Shown piece by piece: positions 2,116 to 24,399 of a stretch of 36,373 nucleotides of DNA. The position numbers and the translations under genes were made by a program. Source of the stretch: Flavobacteriales bacterium (GTDB lineage Bacteria > Bacteroidota > Bacteroidia > Flavobacteriales > Schleiferiaceae); NCBI GenBank assembly GCA_012269745.1, contig JAAXJR010000036.1, forward strand, positions 36,753 through 73,125, read 5' to 3'. The first letter of the stretch is position 1, and each line of letters begins with the position of its first letter. The notes below the pieces were generated by a model. The model was not told the DNA's origin, searched no databases, and saw only the letters and a list, made by a program, of their open reading frames with translations.

Positions 2116-4662
2116 TTACTCTTCAGAATTAGGTGTTTCATCTGTGGTTTCAGCTGCAGGCCCTTCAGAAGTTCCTTCAGTCGCCTCTACCCCTTCTACT
2201 CCTTCGATTTCTTCTTCCTCTTCAGAAGCAGGAACCTTAGCAATAGACGCAATCTCGTCACCTTTTCTCAGGCTGATCAAACGAACACCTTGGGTAGCAC
2301 GACCCATCACACGTAAGGAATCGATACTCATGCGAATCATCGTACCTTTCTTGGTGATAATCATGAGGTCGTTTTCGTCATTTACAGCTTTCAAGCTTAC
2401 CAATTCACCAGTTTTATCGGTTACAGTGATGGTTTTAACACCCTTACCACCTCTGTTGGTGATGCGGTAATCTTCTAGAGATGAACGTTTACCGTACCCT
2501 TGTTCGCTGACTACCATGACATCGAAACCGTCACCTTCTTTTACCACGACCATTCCTACAACTTCGTCGTTTTCAGAATCTACGGTAATCGCACGAACAC
2601 CAGACGCATTACGTCCCATTGAACGAACTTTGTCTTCAGGGAAACGGATAGCTTTACCACTACGGACCGCCATCATGATATCTTGCTCGCCGTTGGTAAG
2701 TTTCGCTTCTAATAGCGTGTCCCCTTCACGGATAGTGATCGCATTGATACCATTAACACGTGGACGGCTGTATGCTTCAAGCGGTGTTTTCTTAATGATT
2801 CCTTGCTTGGTACACATTACGATGTAATGGTTATTAATGTAGTCCTCGTCTTTGAGGTTGAGTACATTAATAAAGGCCAATACTTTGTCGTCTTGAGGGA
2901 TGTTAATCAAGTTTTGGATTGCCCTACCCTTACTTTGTCTAGTTCCTTCAGGAATTTCGTAAACACGCATCCAGAAACAACGCCCTTGTTCTGTGAAGAA
3001 GAGCATGTATTGGTGGTTTGTTGCAACAAAGACATTTTCAATAAAGTCTTTATCTCTTGTCGATGCAGCTTTAGCACCTACTCCACCTCTGTTTTGTGTT
3101 TTGTACTCCGTCAACGGTGTACGCTTGATATAACCTGCGTGAGAAATAGTAATAACAACCTCAGTATCTGGGATCATATCCTCGATACTTACATCACCAC
3201 CGGCAAATTCAATATCTGTGCGGCGATCATCTCCATATTTATCCTTAACCTCGATCAATTCATCCTTAATGATTTGCATACGAAGGCCTTTGTCGGCAAG
3301 GATGCTCTTTAAGTAATCGATAGTCTTCATCAATTCCTCGTATTCTGCCTTGATCTTGTCTCTTTCAAGACCAGTCAATTTTTGAAGACGCATATCGAGG
3401 ATAGCCTTCGCTTGAATTTCTGACAACTTGAATTCGGTCATCAATCCGTTACGAGCTTCTTCTGGAGTTGCAGAGCCACGGATAAGCTTGATGACTGCAT
3501 CAAGGTTATCAATAGCAATGAGCAAACCTTCTAAAACATGTGCTCTTTTTTCTGCTTGACGAAGTTCGTATTCAGTACGACGTACTACTACTTCATGACG
3601 ATGAGCCACGAAGTGTTTGATCATGTCTTTCAAGTTCAACAACTCAGGACGGCCATTGACAAGTGCAATGTTGTTTACTGAGAATGAGCTTTGTAGCTGG
3701 GTGTACTTGTATAGTTTATTTAATACAACGTTAGGTACAGCATCGCGCTTGAGTACGTAAACAATACGCATCCCTTTACGGTCACTTTCATCGCGGATAT
3801 CAGAAATGCCTTCGATTTTCTTGTCATTGACCAAATCGGCAGTTTTCTTAATCATATCTGCCTTGTTGACTTGGTAAGGGATCTCTGTAACGATGATACA
3901 TTCACGTCCTTTTACCTCCTCAATAGTGGCTTTACCGCGTAAAACGATACGTCCACGTCCGGTGTGGAATGCATCACGTACACCTTCGTAGCCGTAGATA
4001 GTTCCTCCAGTTGGGAAATCTGGAGCCGTAATGTGTTGCATCAATCCATCTACTTCGATAGAATCATCATCGATATAAGCATTGATGGCGTTGATACTCT
4101 CAGTGATGTTGTGAGGCGGCATGTTCGTTGCCATACCTACCGCGATACCAGAAGCACCGTTCACAAGCAACCCAGGAATACGTGTTGGCAACACTGTAGG
4201 CTCCTTAAGAGAGTCGTCAAAGTTAAGTTGCCAGTCTACTGTGTCTTTATCGATGTCCGAGAGCATTTCCTCAGCAATCTTGCGCATGCGAACCTCAGTG
4301 TAACGCATTGCCGCAGGAGAATCACCATCGATCGACCCGAAGTTACCTTGCCCATCGATGAGCATGTATCTCAAAGACCAATCTTGGGCCATACGAACCA
4401 TAGTGTCGTATACTGAGCTATCACCATGCGGGTGATACTTACCGAGTACATCCCCGACAATCCTTGCCGATTTCTTATATGCTTTGGTGCTGGTCACACC
4501 CATGTCGTGCATGCCGTAGAGTACACGTCTGTGTACAGGTTTCAATCCGTCACGAACATCTGGAAGTGCACGTGAAACGATGACCGACATCGAATAATCG
4601 ATGTAGGAGCTTTTCATTTGCTCCTCAATATTTACGGGAATAATTCTTTCTCCCTGCGCCAT
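2116..4662 (-). CDS. gyrA: DNA gyrase subunit A
   Basis: The 848-residue protein is the breakage-reunion subunit of DNA gyrase, which introduces negative supercoils with GyrB. The start [20 protein letters not shown] is typical. The quinolone-resistance region reads [12 protein letters not shown] around residues 76-87, with Ser82 and Asp86 at the positions usually mutated in resistant strains, so the sequence looks wild type. Tyr121 in [10 protein letters not shown] is the DNA-linking tyrosine. The C-terminal wrapping domain carries a GyrA-box like motif (QNRGGVG, around residue 520) and a second related NRGGKG. The protein ends in a long acidic tail rich in Glu. It is divergent from clpC, with a 233-bp gap between them. 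Confidence 0.97.
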
Positions 4663-16230: not shown

Positions 16231-17658
16231 ATGACTCCAAGAACCATACTTACCACCGCACAGAAGGCGCTCAAGATTAACTTGAACTCTGATATCTACG
16301 GAACTTTTGCAGAAATCGGAGCAGGTCAAGAAACAGTACGTGAATTCTTTAGAGCAGGCGCTGCCTCTGGAACTATTGCAAAGGCAATGAGTGCTTATGA
16401 CAAGGCTTTTTCCGATGATATTTATGGTATTGAAGAGGACAACAGGTACGTTACCCAAAGTCGATTACAGAAAATGCTCCGCCATGAATATGGGCTCATT
16501 GAGAAACGACTGGATCGCGCAAAGCACCCTAGCAAGACCTATTTTGCCTATGCCAATACCGTAGCCACTATCAACTTTGCAAAGACGTTCAAGGGACATG
16601 GATGGATGGGTATTCGTTTTCAAACAGCTCCTGAACGTGGTACTAATGATATCATACTTCATTTCAGATTACATGAAAATGAAGCCAAACATCAGCAAGA
16701 GACCGTTGGTCGTTTAGGCACGAACCTCATTTTTGGTGCATATAAGTATTACGAGGATCCAAAGTTGTTTTTGCAAAGCCTCTACGACAACATTGATAAA
16801 GACGCCATTGAGATTGACTTGATCAACTTCAACGGGCCAGATTTCCAAGAAGTAGACAATCGTCTGATGTCGTTGCAATTGATTAAAAACGGCTACACTG
16901 ATGCCGTAATTTTTGGGCCAGAAGGAAATAACTTACTTCCGGCTGAGCTTTTGTACAAAAAGCATGTTCTAGCTATGCGTGGCTCCTTCAGACCAGTGAC
17001 CAAAGTAAACATGGACATGATCAAGTGTGGTTATGATATGTTTACAAGCGATAAAAAGGTAGATCCCGATCGTACTGTTGTGTTATGGGAAATCACACTA
17101 AATAACCTTTTAGCTGACGGTGAACTAGATGAGCAGGATTTCTTAGATAGAGCAGAAATTCTCTGTGCCCTGGGACAAACTGTGTTGATTTCTAACTATC
17201 AGGAGTATTACAAACTTGTCGACTACTTTGGACGATTCTCTAAGAAACGTCAAGGATTGGTGATGGGGGTAAATAACCTCACCGAATTGTTTAAAGACAA
17301 ATATTACCGCGGACTTCAAGGAGGTATCCTAGAAGCTTTCGGACGCATATTCTCAAAAGACTTGAAGATTCTCGTCTATCCTTTCATTGATCATGATAAC
17401 AATGAAAAGATCATGCGTAAAGAGGACGCAGAAGTACACCCACGCTTCAGGCCAATTATCGACTATCTTATCTTCCATAATAGAATCTTGGATATAGAAG
17501 ATTTCGACCATGAGATTACCAACATCTTCTCACGAGAAGTCCTCAACCAGATTCGCTGTGGCGATGAAGGTTGGGACGAGTGCCTACCTGAGTATGTACA
17601 TCATGTAATTAGAGACAAGAAATTGTTCGGGTATACCGGTGAGGCCCTGGAGGCCTAA
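16231..17658 (+). CDS. Conserved 475-residue protein of unknown function
   Basis: I recognise the sequence style (GAASGTIAKAMSAYDKAFSD, HGWMGIRFQTAPE, VDNRLMSLQLI, MRGSFRPVTKVN, YYRGLQGGILEAFGR) as a long, highly conserved family found in Bacteroidota and some other phyla. Database labels for it are inconsistent in my memory, including TonB-receptor and nicotinate-nucleotide adenylyltransferase. I see no signal peptide, no beta-barrel pattern, no HxGH nucleotidyltransferase motif and no membrane segment, so those labels look unsupported. It is soluble and probably cytoplasmic. It stands alone, convergent with the photolyase gene with a 4-base stop overlap (CTAA). Conservation suggests an enzyme, but I do not assign a reaction. 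Confidence 0.7.
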   Translation: MTPRTILTTAQKALKINLNSDIYGTFAEIGAGQETVREFFRAGAASGTIAKAMSAYDKAFSDDIYGIEEDNRYVTQSRLQKMLRHEYGLIEKRLDRAKHPSKTYFAYANTVATINFAKTFKGHGWMGIRFQTAPERGTNDIILHFRLHENEAKHQQETVGRLGTNLIFGAYKYYEDPKLFLQSLYDNIDKDAIEIDLINFNGPDFQEVDNRLMSLQLIKNGYTDAVIFGPEGNNLLPAELLYKKHVLAMRGSFRPVTKVNMDMIKCGYDMFTSDKKVDPDRTVVLWEITLNNLLADGELDEQDFLDRAEILCALGQTVLISNYQEYYKLVDYFGRFSKKRQGLVMGVNNLTELFKDKYYRGLQGGILEAFGRIFSKDLKILVYPFIDHDNNEKIMRKEDAEVHPRFRPIIDYLIFHNRILDIEDFDHEITNIFSREVLNQIRCGDEGWDECLPEYVHHVIRDKKLFGYTGEALEA

Positions 17659-18965
17659 ACATTTGCTAAGGCCGTCTTAAACCTATCTAAACATCGTTCT
17701 CTCGCCCATTTGTGGTCAACTATAGGATTCGGGTATTTCGACGTACCGTATTCTGGGACCCAGCGTTTAACGTATTTCAATTGCTTGTCAAACTTCTCGA
17801 GCTGAGAAGTCGGGTTGAACACTCTGAAATATGGCGCTGCATCTAATCCGGAGCCACTCGCCCATTGCCATCCACCAATGTTACTAGCTAAATCGAAATC
17901 AAGTAGCTTATCTGCGAAATAACGTTCACCTAATCGCCAATCTATCAAAAGGTGTTTCGTGAGGAAACTAGCGACTATCATACGCACTCTGTTATGCATA
18001 TATCCAGTAGCGTTCAATTCCCGCATGCCTGCATCAACAATCGGATAACCCGTTTTCCCCTCACACCAGGCCCGGAAATGATCCACATTGGTCTCCCAAG
18101 GGATAAAATCATATTTAGGCTTAATGGCCTTCTCACGACTATTTGGGAAATAGTATAGTGCCATTTGGAAGAAGTCTCTCCAAATAAGCTCATTTACGAA
18201 GGTGTCATTGCCTGCTAATCCCTTTCTGAGAAGGTGTCTCACAGAAATAGAACCAAATCTCAAGTGTATACCCAAACGCGTGGTACCCTTTTCATTAGCG
18301 GGAAAATTTCGGGTTGCATCGTACGTCTTAATGATGCTCTCGTCCACAGCTGATGAAGGCAATTCTATGGAAGTAGGCTCAAACCCCATTTCCTGTAAAG
18401 AAGGTATGTTACGTTGCTCTTGTTTGTAGAAGTTTTTAAAGTAAGCTTCTGTAGGATAAGCCTTAGAATGGTATTCAGTAAGCTTCTTGCGCCAAGCCTT
18501 TCCATATGGGCTAAACACAAGATAAGGAGTGCCGTCTGCCTTGACGACCTCATTCTTTTCAAAAACCACATGGTCTTTAGCGCCGATAACCTCTACCCCC
18601 TTATCCTTCCAGAAATTGAAGACCTGCTTGTCCCTTTCTCGAGCATAAGGTTCATAGTCTCTATTTAAAAAGACTTGCTTCACTTCGTATTGCTTAGCAA
18701 GCTCTTTCATTGTTTCTAAAGGAGTGCCATGTACAACTTGGAGTGAAGAGCCAAGCAATTTTAACCGACCTTGTATTTCCGTCAGTTTGTTGTGCAAGAA
18801 GGAAACACGTGCATCTTTCTTATCCTGTAGTTTGTTGAGAATGTTTTTATCAAAAATAAAAATGGGTACCACTGGATACCCACTTTTTAGTGCTTTCCAT
18901 AGGCCAGCATTGTCTTCCAGCCTAAGGTCGCGTCTGAACCAAAAAATACTTACTTCTTTCATCAT
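17655..18965 (-). CDS. phr: DNA photolyase (cryptochrome/photolyase family)
   Basis: The 436-residue flavoprotein uses blue light to repair UV pyrimidine dimers. The N-terminal alpha/beta antenna domain starts with [19 protein letters not shown]. The FAD domain carries the hallmark [22 protein letters not shown], preceded by DFDLASN with the Asn that contacts the flavin N5 region. Length fits class I CPD photolyases. The start overlaps the folE stop by 4 bases (ATGA); a second in-frame ATG follows directly. As the last gene of the carotenoid/pterin operon it is likely co-induced with it. A reduced pterin or folate antenna is common in this class and would fit the two pterin genes upstream, but that link is inferred. 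Confidence 0.93.
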
Positions 18966-19633
18966 CTAAAAGACTCCAGAAATGCTTTTTTGTTCATGTC
19001 TTTTTCAAATTCTCCATGGAAAGACATTGTAATGGTAGAGCTACCATCGTCTTCGATTCCTCGAGTCTTAACACACATGTGATCTGCTTCTAGGTATACT
19101 GCAACATCTTTGGTGCCCAAACCCTCCATAAGGGCCTCTGCTATTTGTCGTGTCAATCGTTCTTGAACTTGCGGACGTTTAGCGTAATGGCGAACTATGC
19201 GGTTCAGTTTACTTAGGCCAACCACATTGCCGTTTGGGATGTAGGCTACATGACATTTGCCTATAATTGGAACAAAGTGGTGCTCGCAATGAGAGTGGAC
19301 CTTAATGTCTTTCTCAATGAGCATTTCGCTATACTGGAATTTGTTTGAGAACAATTTCATTTCAGGCTTATTCTCAGGATTTAATCCAGCAAAAGCCTCT
19401 TTCACATACATTTTTGCAACCCTCAATGGTGTGCCATTCAAACTGTCGTCAGTAAGATCTAGCCCGAGAATCTCCATGATGTCTCGAAATTTATCGGCAA
19501 TTAGGGCTACCTTTTCATCTTCGGTTAAATCAAAAGCATCCTCACGCATTGGAGTATCTATGCTCGTTCCAAGGTGCGCTTCAACTAGATGTTCTAGCTG
19601 TTCAGCAGTATATCCATTTTCATGATGTGTCAT
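18962..19633 (-). CDS. folE: GTP cyclohydrolase I (FolE)
   Basis: The 223-residue enzyme converts GTP to 7,8-dihydroneopterin triphosphate, the entry to folate and biopterin synthesis. The zinc ligands are present: Cys116 and the HH pair 118-119 in SHCEHHF, and Cys187 in [11 protein letters not shown]. The substrate segment GLSKLNRIV and [10 protein letters not shown] are also conserved. It lies 8 bases after the pterin synthase gene and overlaps the photolyase start by 4 bases, so all three are one transcript. A folE copy placed in a carotenoid/photolyase operon suggests a light-responsive pterin supply; I cannot tell whether the genome has another folE for housekeeping. Confidence 0.96.
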
Positions 19634-19641
19634 TATTCTTT

Positions 19642-20052
19642 CTATTTACCGCTGTATTCAACGTAATTACGTGGCGTCTCGTAAAGCGTCACTTTTAATT
19701 CTAATTCACTATCCAAAACTTTACGCAGCCTATTCCATATTACGTAGGCAATATGCTCCGCAGTAGGATTGAGCGCTTGGAACTCCTCGACCTGAATATT
19801 CAGGTTCTTGTGATCTAGATACTCTTCAACCTCCGACTTGATATGGTCGCGCAATACTTTCATATCTATTAAATATCCCGTCTTAGGATCTACATCCCCC
19901 GTCACATGAACAATGAGTTCATAGTTGTGACCGTGATAGTATTCATTATTACACTTCCCGAAAGTTGCTGCATTTTCAGCAGGACTCAATTCCGGATTAT
20001 GTAACCTATGTGCAGCGTTAAAATGTGCTCGTCTACATACCGTGATTCTCAT
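19642..20052 (-). CDS. 6-pyruvoyl-tetrahydropterin synthase / QueD homologue
   Basis: The 136-residue protein uses the FolE product. Zinc ligands His15, His40 and His42 (the latter two in YHGHNYEL), catalytic Cys34 in [11 protein letters not shown], the Asp80-His81 pair in DHKNLN, and Glu125 in LYETPRNY are all in place. PTPS makes 6-pyruvoyl-tetrahydropterin for tetrahydrobiopterin; QueD makes carboxytetrahydropterin for queuosine. The CNNEYYHGH spacing and the lack of other que genes nearby leave both possible, but the context favours a pterin cofactor. The first 20 bases overlap the end of idi; it is immediately followed by folE, which acts one step earlier. Confidence 0.9.
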
Positions 20053-20563
20053 TATGCCAATACTTTAAGAATCGGTCATAGATGATTTTGAACCATTCAG
20101 TGTACTTCTCAGGATGAGCTTTCATGTCTTCAGCCACCCAATCCACTGATTTCCAGTCAAAACTATCGACTTCTTCAGGGTTAATATTTGGATCTTCGTT
20201 ATAACGAGCAATGAGGACATGGTCCAGCTCATGCTCTGTTAAATCATTGTCCAATTCTGCTTTGTAGATGAATGAGAAAATACGTTTGACCGTGCAGGTA
20301 AACCCCATTTCCTCCATCAATCTTCTTGTGGCGGCTTCTTCCACAGTTTCACCGTCCCTAGGATGAGAACAGCACGTATTCGTCCAAAGTCCACCACTGT
20401 GGTACTTATGCAGAGCACGTCTTTGAAGTAAAATTTCGTTGTCGTCGTTCATGGCGAAAACAGAGAATGCACGGTGCAGTTTCGCCTTTCGGTGCGCTTC
20501 CATTTTCTCCATCAGTCCAATCGGATTATCGTCCGAATCGACCAGGATAACTTGTTCAAGCAT
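20033..20563 (-). CDS. idi: Isopentenyl-diphosphate delta-isomerase, type I
   Basis: The 176-residue Nudix-fold enzyme interconverts IPP and DMAPP, supplying the starter for carotenoid precursors. Key features are the Cys in TNTCCSHP (Cys65 aligned with the catalytic one), the Nudix-type stretch DGETVEEAATRRLMEEMGF, metal-site His24 and His30, and the acidic EHELDHV. It starts 9 bases after crtB and overlaps the pterin synthase gene by 20 bases. Its placement in the operon suggests the cell raises isoprenoid supply together with phytoene synthesis. Confidence 0.95.
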   Translation of the reverse strand: MLEQVILVDSDDNPIGLMEKMEAHRKAKLHRAFSVFAMNDDNEILLQRRALHKYHSGGLWTNTCCSHPRDGETVEEAATRRLMEEMGFTCTVKRIFSFIYKAELDNDLTEHELDHVLIARYNEDPNINPEEVDSFDWKSVDWVAEDMKAHPEKYTEWFKIIYDRFLKYWHNENHGM

Positions 20564-20572
20564 TGTAATATG

Positions 20573-21409
20573 TTATATCCAGTTTATGGTGTGTCTAACG
20601 TACGAACTTAAAAACAAACCATACTTCCTTTTGTTCGAAATACGCACTCGTTCATTAAGAATAATATCTGCATGTGTACTACAGATTTTCTTAAAGAGGC
20701 TGTAGTAGTATACATAGGCTATGTAGACACCAAACCTTGCTCCTTTAGGAAGCTGTTTGATTCCTTCGTATCCTGCCTTGAAGTCTATGTCAATATCAGC
20801 TTCAATTTCAGCCTTTACGCGCTCGTTGAATTCATTAAGGTCTACTCCTGGGAAATAGGTCCTGCCTAATGCGTGGTAATCCGCGTGTAGGTCACGTAAA
20901 AAGTTGATTTTCTGGAAAGCTGAGCCTAATTGCATTGCAGGCTGCTTTAATTCTTGGTATCGCTTCTCGTCTCCATCAACGAAAACCTTCAAGCACATAA
21001 GACCAACAACTTCTGCACTACCTAGAATGTAGGCTTTATAGCCTTCTTCGTCGTAGTCGTTCTTGTATAGATCCATCTCCATGGACTTCAAGAAGGTCTC
21101 AATTAAATCACGATCTATCTCAAAAGCATTTACTACTTGTTGAAAGCTGTTGAGTATGGGGTTGAGACTAATTTTTTCGTCCAAGGCCAAATAGGTGTCT
21201 TTCCAAAAGCGCTCTAATAACTCTTTCTGAGGATAGCCTTCGAAACTATCCACGATTTCATCTGCGAATCGAACAAACCCATAAATGGCATAGATAGGGT
21301 CGTGATACTTTTTATCAAGCCCTAGAATACCAAGAGAGAATGACGTACTATAAGCTTTAGTGGTCATTCGTGAGGTGCGAATACTTACGCTGTCAAATAG
21401 TGCTTTCAT
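20573..21409 (-). CDS. crtB: Phytoene synthase (CrtB)
   Basis: The 278-residue prenyltransferase condenses two geranylgeranyl diphosphates to phytoene. The two Asp-rich Mg-binding motifs are FADEIVD and [30 protein letters not shown] near the N-terminus and the missing membrane segment favour CrtB over squalene synthase, and the partner crtI settles it. It overlaps crtI by 4 bases. The GGPP it needs must come from a synthase encoded elsewhere, since none is in the window. Confidence 0.93.
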
Positions 21410-22893
21410 ACCGCCTTCTTTATATTGTAGTCCTTCGCAATCTCTTTACTTACTACTTCCCCACTAATCAAACATGGTGGGACACCAGGTCCTGGTGTAG
21501 TAAGCTGGCCTGCGAAATATAAGTTACTTACTTTTTTACTCTTAAGTCTTGGTTTAAGTATAGCGGTTTGATCCAGTGTATTGGCAAGCCCATATGCGTT
21601 GCCTTTGAAACTGTTGTATTCAGATTTGAAATCTTGGTAGGCAAAGCTGCGCTTTACCACTACTCTATCACGAATAGACGATCCTGTAAATTCTTCCAGC
21701 CTATCCATCATAAGGTTATAGTACTTTTCACGTACTTCCTCTGTATCCCCGTCCATGCCTGGAGCTGTAGGCATTAATAAGAACATATTTTCACAGCCTT
21801 TCGGTGCAACTGTGCTGTCTGTCTTCGAAGGTGCGCTTGCATAAAACAAGGGCTTAGTTGGCCACTTTGGGTCTGTGTATATCTCATGTGCATGTTGATC
21901 GAGCTCGTGATCAAAGAAGAGGTTGTGGTGCAACACGTTTGGTACCTCACCTTCAATACCTAGATAAAATAAAAGTGACGATGGAGCCATTTTTCTTTTG
22001 TCCCAGTATTCTGGGGTGTACTCCCGGTATTCAGGAGAACTAATAACTTGGTCAATATGATGATAATCTGCACCTCCTACTACGATGTCAGCTGTGAAGG
22101 ACCCTCCTTTTGTCAATACACTCACTATACGGCCGTCTGAATATTTAAATCCAGTTACCTCAGTAGAGGTTCTAAATTTTACGCCTTGATTCTTAGCCAC
22201 CCTTATCATGGCCTGAATGATTTCATTCATTCCGTTCATAGGATACCAAGTTCCCAGAGACATATCTGCATAATTCATTAAGCTGTACAATGCAGGAGTA
22301 TTTTGAGGAAGTGCACCTAAGAACAGTACGGGGAATTCTAGAATTGCTTTCAGTTTTGGATGCGAGCTTACTTCGGAAACATGTTTACGAATATCCTTTA
22401 GCATATCGAGCTGAAATAGCCCTTTAACTATACGAAAATCCATGAACTCAGTTAAAGAACGTCCAGGTCTAAATACAAGATCCTTGATACCAACTTCGTA
22501 CTTATAAGCCCCTTGCTTCAAGAATTTTCGAAGTCTTAGGCCTGATCCCGGATCGAGACGATCGAACATCGCTTCGAGTTCTTCCATGCTAGCGCTTTGA
22601 TCTTCATGATCATTCGGGCCAAAAACAACTCTGTAGGAAGGGTCAAGTCTGACGAGATGGTAATGATCTTTTATTTCCTCACCGAATTCTGCGAAGTAGC
22701 GCTCGAACACATCTGGCATCCAATACCAAGATGGTCCCATATCAAAAGTGAAGCCGTCTTTTTTCCAAGACCTTGCTCTACCTCCCAATTGGTCGTTCTT
22801 TTCTAAAACGGTTACATCATAGCCCTCTTTCGCTAAAAAGGAAGCTGCGCTAAGTCCGGCGAATCCGGAGCCGATTACTATTACTGATTTCAT
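21406..22893 (-). CDS. crtI: Phytoene desaturase (CrtI)
   Basis: The 495-residue FAD enzyme desaturates phytoene, typically to lycopene in bacteria. The N-terminal dinucleotide fold is [20 protein letters not shown] followed by [13 protein letters not shown], and the C-terminal FAD segment is [22 protein letters not shown], both diagnostic of CrtI. It starts 23 bases after the sigma-factor gene and overlaps crtB by 4 bases. A different number of desaturations, or a related desaturase activity, cannot be excluded from sequence alone. Confidence 0.93.
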
Positions 22894-22916: not shown

Positions 22917-23423
22917 TTAATAACGCTGGTCTGCTAATTTTTCCATCATCTTCTTTCGAGCCAAGAAGATTCTTGATTTAACAGTTCCGAGAGGAATGTT
23001 GAAGTGCTCGGCAATCTCCTCATATTTATAACCTTCGTAGTGCATGAAGAAGGCTTCAGTGTAATGCGGCTCAATAGAGTTAATCTGCTCCATGATGTAG
23101 TCATTATCTACATTGGCATCTGTCAAAGTCGTCTTGCTCGCCTCTTTACTATTTAAGAAATACTGACTCTCCGTCTCATCAACAAAAGTATTCTGTTGCT
23201 TTTTCCGACGGTAGTTGTTGATGAACGTGTTTTTCATGATGGTGTACAACCACCCCTTCAGATTAGTTCCCGTAGCAAACTTATCCTTGTTTTTTAGTGC
23301 TTTGAAATAGGTATCTTGAATGAGATCCTGCGCATCATCGTGACGTTTGGTCAATTTCATAGCTAGCTGTTGCAAGAAATCGTATTCACGATCGATTAAT
23401 TCTCCAAATTCTGCGGTCGACAT
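22917..23423 (-). CDS. ECF-family RNA polymerase sigma factor (LitS-like by context)
   Basis: The 168-residue protein has region 2 (about 10-80: [17 protein letters not shown], then [19 protein letters not shown]) and region 4 (about 110-165: [20 protein letters not shown]), the two domains of group 4 sigma factors. No anti-sigma gene is adjacent. It sits between a CarH/LitR-type regulator and crtI, the same arrangement as litR-litS-crt in Streptomyces, where the sigma factor transmits the light signal. A -7 element and a large dyad lie directly upstream. The target promoters are unknown. Confidence 0.92.
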
Positions 23424-23429
23424 AACACA

Positions 23430-23507
23430 TTGTTTAAGGTTGCTTATCCAAAGTTAAACAATATGTTCAAACAATTTGTCTAACGATGAATAAATTTTAT
23501 TAAACAA
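23430..23507. promoter_or_regulatory. Extended 78-bp dyad with two tandem 13-bp units, candidate CarH-type operator
   Basis: Centred at 23468/23469, 26 of 39 base pairs are complementary across the centre. The outer arms TTGTTTAA (23430-23437) and TTAAACAA (23500-23507) match perfectly; inner blocks are TTAT/ATAA, GTTA/TAAC, ACAA/TTGT and TGTT/AACA. The core is two head-to-tail 13-mers, AAACAATATGTTC (23456-23468) and AAACAATTTGTCT (23469-23481). It fills most of the 97-bp gap between the regulator and the sigma gene and overlaps the -7 element at 23449-23456, so a bound regulator would block that promoter. An RNA hairpin is the alternative reading. Confidence 0.6.
23449..23456 (-). promoter_or_regulatory. 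-7 promoter element of the sigma/crt operon (TAACTTTG)
   Basis: The minus strand reads TAACTTTG, an exact TAnnTTTG match, 26 bases before the sigma-factor start codon. The nearest TTG upstream is only 15 bases away, shorter than the usual 17-23, so the promoter may be weak or need an activator. It lies inside the 78-bp dyad. Confidence 0.45.
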
Positions 23508-23520
23508 ACGATTTTAGTGG

Positions 23521-24399
23521 TTACACAGCCGCGGAAAGGTCCTTTAAACTGTTGTAAATGTGTATGTTACTCCCGTAAGAGTCCTTACCAAACTCGTTGA
23601 ATTGGTAGCCTGTAAGGTGTACTTGAACCGACCTGTCTTGGATTAAATCGTCTAAATCTTGAAGATATTCCGACAAGTATTCGAAATCTGGATTAGTCGT
23701 AAAGACAGAAATCAAGGCATCAACATTCTGATTATCCAGAAGATCTGTCAAATATTCTTTTGGTAGACTTTGACCTAAATAAAAGACCTTATCTCCTCTT
23801 TCTTTCAATACATAGGCTAGGTAAAGCAAGCCTATTTCATGAAGTTCATTTGCTGGTAAAAACAGCGCGAAGGTCTTCCCGTCTTCTTTAGCTTCCAAGG
23901 CATCTAAGGCAGAGTAAAGCTTCTGACGGATCATGGAAGACATAAAATGTTCCTGTGAGATACTTACCGAACCACTTAGCCATAGCTTACCTAGCTCTTG
24001 GATATAATCACCAATTACCTTTTGAAATGTGTCGTGAATACCATGTTTCTCAACACACTTATCCATGATCGCTTGGAAGCGCTCGATATCAAAGTTGAGA
24101 GTACTCAGCTTTAATTCATTGAGCTCATAAGTGAAATTCCCTTCATATGGATCGCAATCGTGAGCTTGTTTTGCAATCTCTTCTGAGCTTAGTTTAGCTA
24201 CTTGGCCAATCTTCCAATCGTGTTCCATCAGAATGCTAACGTTCAGGATCACTCTAAGGTCATCATCACTATAGTAGCGAATATTCGTACTAGTGCGCTT
24301 TGGAGTGATGAGCTTATGACGCTGTTCCCAAGCGCGTATTGTATGCGCTTTGATACCACTTAGCTGTTCAAGATCTTTTATGGAATACCGAGACTTCAC
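23521..24399 (-). CDS. MerR-type regulator with B12-binding domain, CarH/LitR photoreceptor family
   Basis: The 292-residue protein has a MerR winged helix at the N-terminus (YSIKDLEQLSGIKAHTIRAWEQRH, with RYYSDDDL at 41-48), a four-helix linker domain, and a Rossmann-type cobalamin domain (about 175-290). The photoreceptor signature W-x9-EH is present as Trp140 ... Glu150-His151, and the lower-ligand motif E-x-H-x-x-G is Glu185-His187-Gly190; spacing agrees with Thermus CarH (W131, E141-H142, H177). It should bind adenosylcobalamin, repress in the dark and release DNA in light. The residue after Trp140 is Leu, not the His that in Thermus CarH binds cobalt after light. It is upstream of the sigma/crt genes. 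Confidence 0.9.
   Translation of the reverse strand: MKSRYSIKDLEQLSGIKAHTIRAWEQRHKLITPKRTSTNIRYYSDDDLRVILNVSILMEHDWKIGQVAKLSSEEIAKQAHDCDPYEGNFTYELNELKLSTLNFDIERFQAIMDKCVEKHGIHDTFQKVIGDYIQELGKLWLSGSVSISQEHFMSSMIRQKLYSALDALEAKEDGKTFALFLPANELHEIGLLYLAYVLKERGDKVFYLGQSLPKEYLTDLLDNQNVDALISVFTTNPDFEYLSEYLQDLDDLIQDRSVQVHLTGYQFNEFGKDSYGSNIHIYNSLKDLSAAV

Follow-up and report, generated by a model that had tools for sequence, protein, structure and literature searches.

In Streptomyces, the LitR-LitS system places the gene of a B12-binding MerR-type regulator beside that of an ECF sigma factor at the crt cluster. Bacteroidetes promoters canonically have the form TTG-N18-20-TAnnTTTG, made of a -33 box and a -7 box. 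The operators of CarH and CarA are already known (accessible parts of PMC9304148 and PMC8156234). According to the available text of PMC9304148, CarH operators consist of 11-bp tandem direct repeats, which CarH tetramers use, while the CarA operator at P_crt of Myxococcus xanthus consists of two inverted repeats bound by two dimers and is also read there as 11-bp repeats. For Thermus thermophilus CarH, the H132A variant is described as staying mostly tetrameric after light, and an earlier report as dissociating (both in the accessible portion of PMC10442372). In the flavobacterium Chryseobacterium lacus, carotenoids are induced by light; no car/lit operon was found and the mechanism was called unknown (PMC7064467, in the part available).

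The stretch of DNA analysed here (the window) covers 36,373 nucleotides of a 2.27-Mb Flavobacteriales genome. It contains a 97-bp gap (23424-23520) between a regulator gene and a sigma factor gene, with the following genes around it.

23521 to 24399, minus strand: MerR-type regulator with a cobalamin-binding domain (CarH/LitR-like; 292 amino acids, GTG start).
22917 to 23423, minus strand: ECF-type sigma factor (Pfam Sigma70_r2, Sigma70_r4_2 and Sigma70_ECF), the first gene past the predicted operator.
21406 to 22893, minus strand: crtI-like phytoene desaturase of the amine oxidoreductase family (Pfam PF01593) in the same run, the crtI name being taken from its adjacency to the phytoene synthase gene.
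20573 to 21409, minus strand: crtB-like phytoene/squalene synthase (Pfam SQS_PSY).

Behind the sigma factor gene come, all on one strand, the crtI-like and phytoene synthase genes and then genes for NUDIX, PTPS-family, GTP cyclohydrolase I and photolyase-family proteins. This run (17655-22893) behind merR and the sigma gene is a carotenoid and photorepair operon, possibly one that also provides a pterin antenna. The CarH/LitR-type linkage to carotenoid genes is present, with crtI-like and crtB-like genes in the regulator's own strand run. In 13 of 20 loci from other families crtI comes directly after merR; it stands behind a sigma factor gene in two (L222, L223), lies on the opposite side in one (L226) and was not seen in four. 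An ECF sigma gene after the operator was found in family f1 and in the one f5 and the one f14 locus examined; family f3, which recurs below, is probably Flavobacteriaceae.

The locus resembles the CarH/LitR systems of T. thermophilus and Bacillus megaterium in that its regulator joins a MerR domain to a cobalamin domain, keeps the equivalents of W131, E141, H142 and H177 and has CarH chains as its best fold matches, in that its half-sites hold the core TnnACA, and in that the site overlaps the promoter of carotenoid genes. CarH operators hold three or four tandem 11-bp direct repeats, whereas here one or two copies of an inverted repeat are found, with convergent half-sites spaced about 24 bp. 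The regulator also lacks His132, the predicted operator is followed by an ECF sigma gene, and sites stand before fasciclin, TspO and proteorhodopsin genes too. With the CarA operator it shares one repeat upstream of a promoter element and one overlapping it, which is a likeness of layout and not of sequence; unlike the present site, the CarA operator overlaps the -35 and not the -7 element, and CarA is B12-independent. LitR-LitS, compared in gene layout alone, has the same arrangement of B12-MerR, ECF sigma and crt genes but is actinobacterial.

A preliminary description of the gap had reported a 78-bp dyad (23430-23507), above chance and with 26 of 39 positions pairing around a centre at 23468/23469, and had read the two tandem 13-mers at its core, together with outer arms, as fitting an operator, with CarH as model. 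The dyad is as described: its 26 pairs are the best score of 36,293 window centres (the next best being 21), and 0/5000 dinucleotide shuffles of the 97-bp gap match it. What had gone unnoticed is that two separate inverted repeats, each of the form 8 + N16 + 8, add up to the dyad. The four half-sites listed below rest on family and genus alignments.

23430 to 23461, minus strand: IR-down, TTGTTTAA-N16-TTAAACAA, by the sigma factor start, its first arm fused to TAnnTTTG (68/70 loci).
23476 to 23507, minus strand: IR-up, TTGTTTAA-N16-TTAGACAA, one mismatch (56/70 loci).
23430 to 23437, plus strand: half-site A, TTGTTTAA.
23454 to 23461, plus strand: half-site B, TTAAACAA, which fits nAnnTnnACAn.
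23476 to 23483, plus strand: half-site C, TTGTCTAA.
23500 to 23507, plus strand: half-site D, TTAAACAA.
23449 to 23456, minus strand: TAACTTTG, a sequence match to TAnnTTTG, which we take to be the Bacteroidetes -7 box.
23456 to 23481, plus strand: the tandem 13-mers of the preliminary description, made up of half-site B and a further element of the genus, TGTTCAAACA (23464-23473), which continues into C.

The outer ends of the four half-sites coincide exactly with those of the dyad: when two inverted repeats stand in tandem, A can also pair with D and B with C, which produces the overall symmetry. The outer arms, put forward earlier as extra contacts or a sign of looping, are half-sites A and D themselves. 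The tandem 11-mers do exist, 13 bp apart (AAACAATATGT at 23456-23466 and AAACAATTTGT at 23469-23479), and at 10 or more of 11 positions they form the only such pair in the window, equalled by 15/5000 gap shuffles. A third exact copy of AAACAATNTGT, not noticed before, lies inverted on the minus strand at 23425-23435, abutting the sigma factor start and overlapping half-site A; at the equivalent place it is exact only in L008 and L009. Exact AAACAATNTGT sites number seven genome-wide, three of them in the gap, against six for the reversed control pattern, so that AAACAATnTGT was rejected as a genome-wide motif, being clustered in the gap and not enriched. In a loosened form (at most two mismatches per copy, 13 bp apart) the tandem was found in 18/20 genus loci and in 1/50 outside the genus; its two copies agree at 9-10 of 11 positions in 7/19 genus loci and at 4-8 in 12/19. 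As judged from these alignments, the tandem is a genus-level addition and not the conserved unit. It may provide an extra contact in the window genus, arriving with a shortened spacing.

For the family comparison, the stretch downstream of merR was taken from 70 same-family loci, the window's own included. IR-down, called on a core of at least 11/13 with a second arm of at least 6/8 and spacers of N10-23 allowed, was present in 68 of the 70 loci (53 with a spacer of N16, 15 with N17). The two misses are L076, where an exact repeat is nonetheless present at G025:C10:55675 (the script chose the wrong core), and L057, where merR has been relocated and whose sigma gene lies elsewhere (L128) with two repeats of one mismatch each. 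The 13-mer conserved across the family is TTGTTTAACTTTG, that is, the first arm plus TAnnTTTG. IR-up, with at least 13/16 matches at a consistent upstream place, was found in 56/70 loci, which gives the CarA-type arrangement of paired inverted repeats with one over a promoter element; its distance from IR-down is 22 bp in all 20 loci of the window genus and 29-31 bp in the 36 others. Phylogenetic footprinting of the gap, as had been proposed, bears out the inverted repeat and leaves the tandem almost limited to the genus. In the window's own genome, the two gap repeats are the only sites with 0-1 mismatch to TTGTTTAA-N16-TTAAACAA and IR-down is the unique exact copy; at three or fewer mismatches there are 27 sites against 23 for the reversed pattern, hardly any excess. 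An alignment of 19 genus loci (L026 left out) gave 1.83 bits per position in the half-sites, 1.52 in the B-C stretch that holds the tandem and 1.27 elsewhere; contacts within the fairly conserved B-C stretch of the genus are thus possible. The half-sites contain TnnACA, the CarH recognition core, and these cores form convergent pairs about 24 bp apart; the CarH arrangement of tandem 11-bp nnnnTnnACAn units was not found. A repeat also precedes merR itself (at most two mismatches, N15-18) in 20/50 family loci outside the genus, against 1/50 for the reversed control. It does so in 1/20 loci of the window genus, and we count its absence from the other 19 against the operator reading, as we do the many genus genomes whose hit numbers at two mismatches, among the matches listed, are near those of the control.

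The proposal that the operator overlies the TAnnTTTG box is also supported, the first arm of IR-down being fused to that box. A TTG at N18-20 upstream of TAnnTTTG was found in 36/47 loci outside the genus and in 0/19 genus loci: in the window genus the two repeats lie about 8 bp closer together and the canonical -33 TTG is missing, which again counts against the operator reading. Outside that genus, the -7 box and the sequence downstream of it fall within IR-down and the -33 box is preceded by IR-up; a regulator bound to both should therefore block initiation. A sigma-70 promoter and terminator scan gave nothing useful and no terminator-like site.

The regulator has the N-terminal MerR winged helix and C-terminal B12-binding domains of the CarH/LitR family: Pfam MerR_1 and B12-binding_2 score above cut-off, and B12-binding (E 1.5e-4) lies below its curated cut-off. 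A phmmer search of the PDB gave T. thermophilus CarH/LitR as best match (3whp and 5c8d, E 2.9e-17, residues 5-228). With an AlphaFold model (pLDDT 81, pTM 0.69) as Foldseek query, the best 50 matches listed were all T. thermophilus CarH/LitR, 5c8e and 5c8d at the top (E 2.4e-13). The TM score is about 0.5 for the full chain, in which the domains are placed differently, and reaches at most 0.77 (target-normalised) when the cobalamin domain is taken by itself. Residues W140, E150, H151, E185 and H187 are invariant in 70/70 family proteins; in the alignment to 3whp, W140, E150, H151 and H187 correspond to Trp131, Glu141, His142 and His177, the dark-state AdoCbl residues of CarH. At the position of His132, the bis-His ligand of the CarH light state (residue 141 of the window's regulator, directly after the tryptophan), 49 of the 70 have Q, 20 have L and one has T; among 20 proteins of other families the residue is Q in 14, L in three and M in one, with two unreadable and never H. 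The His132 comparison was made with T. thermophilus CarH alone and is not taken as family-defining; given the absence of this residue, the release step cannot copy that of T. thermophilus CarH.

Presence of the repeat follows that of the regulator gene. In 88 genomes of the family there are 128 sites at one or no mismatch, against 16 for the reversed pattern, and a site occurs in 63/70 regulator-positive and 2/15 regulator-negative genomes (p 9e-9), or in 56/62 and 2/9 (p 4e-5) at a completeness of at least 84%; these p values, like the one below, overstate, the related genomes not being independent. The family count leaves out G070, G085 and G013 (truncated regulator hits), treats weak MerR hits above 1e-40 as no regulator and scores G028 as positive because of its 37%-identical regulator. 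Across 158 genomes of the order, with regulator presence defined as a hit at E 1e-25, the exact repeat was found in 37/71 positive and 0/87 negative genomes (p 1.3e-16), or in 22/49 and 0/87 once the window family is removed, with 74 exact sites against five reversed. Counted against the operator reading were the seven of 70 regulator-positive family genomes without an N16 site at one or no mismatch, the two regulator-negative genomes with sites (G029, G042) and the 34/71 regulator-positive genomes of the order without an exact repeat.

Two family genomes have lost merR from this place while keeping the sigma gene. In G005 the sigma gene and prfC adjoin, merR being gone from between them, and the best remaining match has six mismatches; in G028 merR is gone between prfC and sigma and the best match has five. 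Five to six mismatches are the random level, whereas the same-genus genomes G003, G004, G026 and G027 have none. G028 (L127, L185) also carries the distant regulator (37% identical) and, among the matches listed, at least four repeats elsewhere; its regulon may have been rewired to the paralog. Conversely, the repeat stands directly between merR and crtI, with no adjacent sigma gene, in L075 (two mismatches) and L076 (exact), and between merR and crtI in 9/13 f3/f4 loci, the other four having it only before merR; a sigma gene is therefore not needed for the site. Of the 20 other-family loci, 15 (f3, f4, f5 and f14) have a repeat with at most two mismatches by merR or the gene following it. The other five (f7, f8, f11, f13 and f15), all with distant regulators, lack it and were counted against the reading. 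At the locus of one distant regulator (L225, positions 1239 and 2782) a variant repeat, TTGTATAA-N16-TTATACAA, was seen and counted as absent; it suggests that half-site and regulator may have changed together. Genome G073 has two merR loci (contigs C32 and C97), 82% and 67% identical to that of the window, and is probably a mixed metagenome bin.

Copies of the repeat also precede crtI and merR genes, and fasciclin, proteorhodopsin and other stress-type genes recur as neighbours. In the window's own genome, one of two sites with two mismatches (1990-2021 of L139, contig C6) lies between a proteorhodopsin gene (1148-1927) and a divergent gene for a lycopene cyclase and beta-carotene dioxygenase fusion (2140-3999), with no reversed control site at two mismatches among the matches listed. 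The other (G000:C10:20634, L140) was regarded as weak or due to chance and not counted as a target. A survey of 30 family proteorhodopsin upstream regions, 27 of them with at least 200 bases, gave a repeat with at most two mismatches in 11 (five at one or no mismatch, one exact), where the reversed control has none and base shuffling predicts 0.025; seven fall among the 17 window-genus loci and four in other genera (L154, L161, L167, L168). No N16 repeat at this threshold was found upstream of proteorhodopsin in the other 19/30 loci, including 10/17 of the window genus. Outside these 30, L194 (G038) has a repeat with one mismatch before proteorhodopsin, and L247 of family f3 an exact one between proteorhodopsin and a dioxygenase gene; a copy between proteorhodopsin and retinal-synthesis genes was thus found in the window's own genome and in f3. 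In the genus, an AGTnTTnnACT-like stretch and a GTTAAGtGGTAGTTATAACCTTTAA-like block upstream of proteorhodopsin (L142-L169) appear by eye to be conserved regardless of the arms; as AGTnTTnnACT is kept where the arms are not, part of the conservation there has another cause.

The remaining target loci were chosen for holding a repeat (chosen listed matches in 29 loci plus 16 further loci, and, outside the window family, 20 of 58 exact sites sampled), and the Pfam scan covered part of the neighbours, several of which have no evident light link. Fasciclin genes confirmed by Pfam lie behind repeats in L131, L136, L137, L171, L175, L177, L178, L183, L185, L236, L238, L239, L249 and L252. Other genes so placed encode SDR (L179), CIA30 (L130, L182), TspO (L251), TetR_C_23 (L187, with an ABC1 kinase behind it, L233 and L248), flavin reductase (L186, L246), a second ECF sigma factor (L180) and a GAF histidine kinase (L172). 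Neighbours without an obvious link to light include DUF4856 (L134), DUF4397 (L181, L189), a GDSL lipase (L234) and RNase E/G beside L172. The photolyase and methyltransferase genes of L179 and L182 were rejected as targets, since they lie on the opposite side of the repeat, and hits inside coding frames (L174, L176, L191) were not counted. In three window-genus loci (L196, L197, L199) a repeat with 0-1 mismatch stands 3-6 bp before the gene of a large secreted MAM/fn3 protein, assigned by Pfam in L196 and by a look at the sequence only in L197 and L199; it too has no obvious link to light.

Based on family conservation, co-occurrence, loss together with the regulator and the CarH/LitR-like nature of the protein, the repeat pair is very likely an operator, and the earlier assignment of the gap to the adjacent regulator is very probably right. 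We consider it probable that the gap is the operator of the adjacent MerR-B12 regulator, formed by two TTGTTTAA-N16/17-TTAAACAA repeats, with repression in the dark and release in the light; binding by the regulator, repression through binding, light release and AdoCbl dependence are proposed here by analogy with CarH. In this model, IR-down lies over the -7 box of the sigma-crt operon and its start region, and IR-up is placed immediately before it. Regulator loaded with AdoCbl would bind the two repeats in the dark, either as a tetramer or as a dimer of dimers, and so keep RNA polymerase out. Cleavage of the Co-C bond by light would then release the regulator and induce the ECF sigma factor, and carotenoid, pterin and photolyase genes would be induced through the operon and the sigma factor.

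Several other readings of the gap were weighed. A CarH-style tandem operator, in which the regulator of the window genus would read AAACAATnTGT units head to tail, draws on the two copies 13 bp apart that are unique in the window, on the loose form in 18/20 genus loci, on the 1.52 bits of that stretch and on the tandem repeats of CarH tetramers (PMC9304148, as far as accessible). We hold it improbable, since the tandem occurs in 1/50 loci outside the genus against the inverted layout in 68/70, its copies match at only 4-8 of 11 positions in 12/19 genus loci, its spacing is 13 and not 11 bp, and the strong half-sites face each other. That the palindrome acts instead as an RNA hairpin, an attenuator or terminator in a merR-sigma transcript, is barely credible, even though an 84-nt strand folds at -21.3 kcal/mol (z -4.7, 0/200 shuffles as good). 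Pairs outside the half-sites hold in only 149/216 cells over 18 genus sequences (L023, with its N17 spacer, and L026 left out); compensation is not consistent as judged by eye, half-site pairs barely vary, the fold energy is -9.4 in L017 and L018, no terminator-like site was found and the spacing differs in other genera. Recognition by the ECF sigma factor, as an autoregulated ECF promoter, rather than by the MerR protein would suit a site that in most family loci immediately precedes the sigma gene, also where merR has moved (L128, L129). It is nevertheless very improbable, because the site precedes crtI without an adjacent sigma gene in L075, L076 and 9/13 f3/f4 loci, G024 (the genome of L075) has no sigma ortholog at E 1e-20, the site has disappeared before the retained sigma gene of G005 and G028, where merR was lost, and inverted symmetry suits a dimeric regulator.

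Two further alternatives leave the operator in place and change what the regulator does. It could be mainly an activator here, as many classical MerR proteins are; relatives of MerR include both repressors and activators (PMC8156234, in its accessible part), and the window genus has no canonical -33 box. Against this, IR-down covers the -7 box, and TTG-N18-20-TAnnTTTG in 36/47 other-genus loci means that no activator is obviously needed, and we rate such a role as hardly likely. The regulator could also sense the supply of coenzyme B12, and not light, at the same operator. All dark-state AdoCbl residues are kept while His132 is absent in 70/70, and the accessible text of PMC10442372 describes T. 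thermophilus H132A as mostly tetrameric after light, although the earlier report cited there had it dissociate in light. Because His132 is missing, B12 sensing without light is the main rival; it is unlikely, in view of the carotenoid and photolyase-family genes in the window's own gene run and of the proteorhodopsin, fasciclin and TspO genes behind copies elsewhere, which suit light and photo-oxidative stress.

A literature search, with most subscription journals outside its scope, revealed no paper on such an inverted N16/17 operator, on its spread in Flavobacteriales or on a link of the repeat to proteorhodopsin. The outcome is a regulator, an exact predicted operator and candidate targets for several Flavobacteriales families, whose regulators form a natural set of CarH relatives lacking the histidine to which the light-driven dissociation of the tetramer has been ascribed. 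As far as sequence comparison can tell, carotenoid genes and others related to light are likely under the control of the switch in many flavobacteria, with proteorhodopsin among them in some lineages, and a specific prediction on proteorhodopsin and retinal genes follows that is open to simple testing. A wider reading is an order-wide B12 light switch with its own grammar of convergent pairs at N16/17 and a His132-free light release, which would control proteorhodopsin, retinal synthesis and carotenoids in several lineages. We put this at somewhat less than an even chance, a rating that reflects the 19/30 proteorhodopsin loci without a repeat and the independent conservation there. If true, vitamin B12 would act as a gate on the capture of light energy by marine bacteria.
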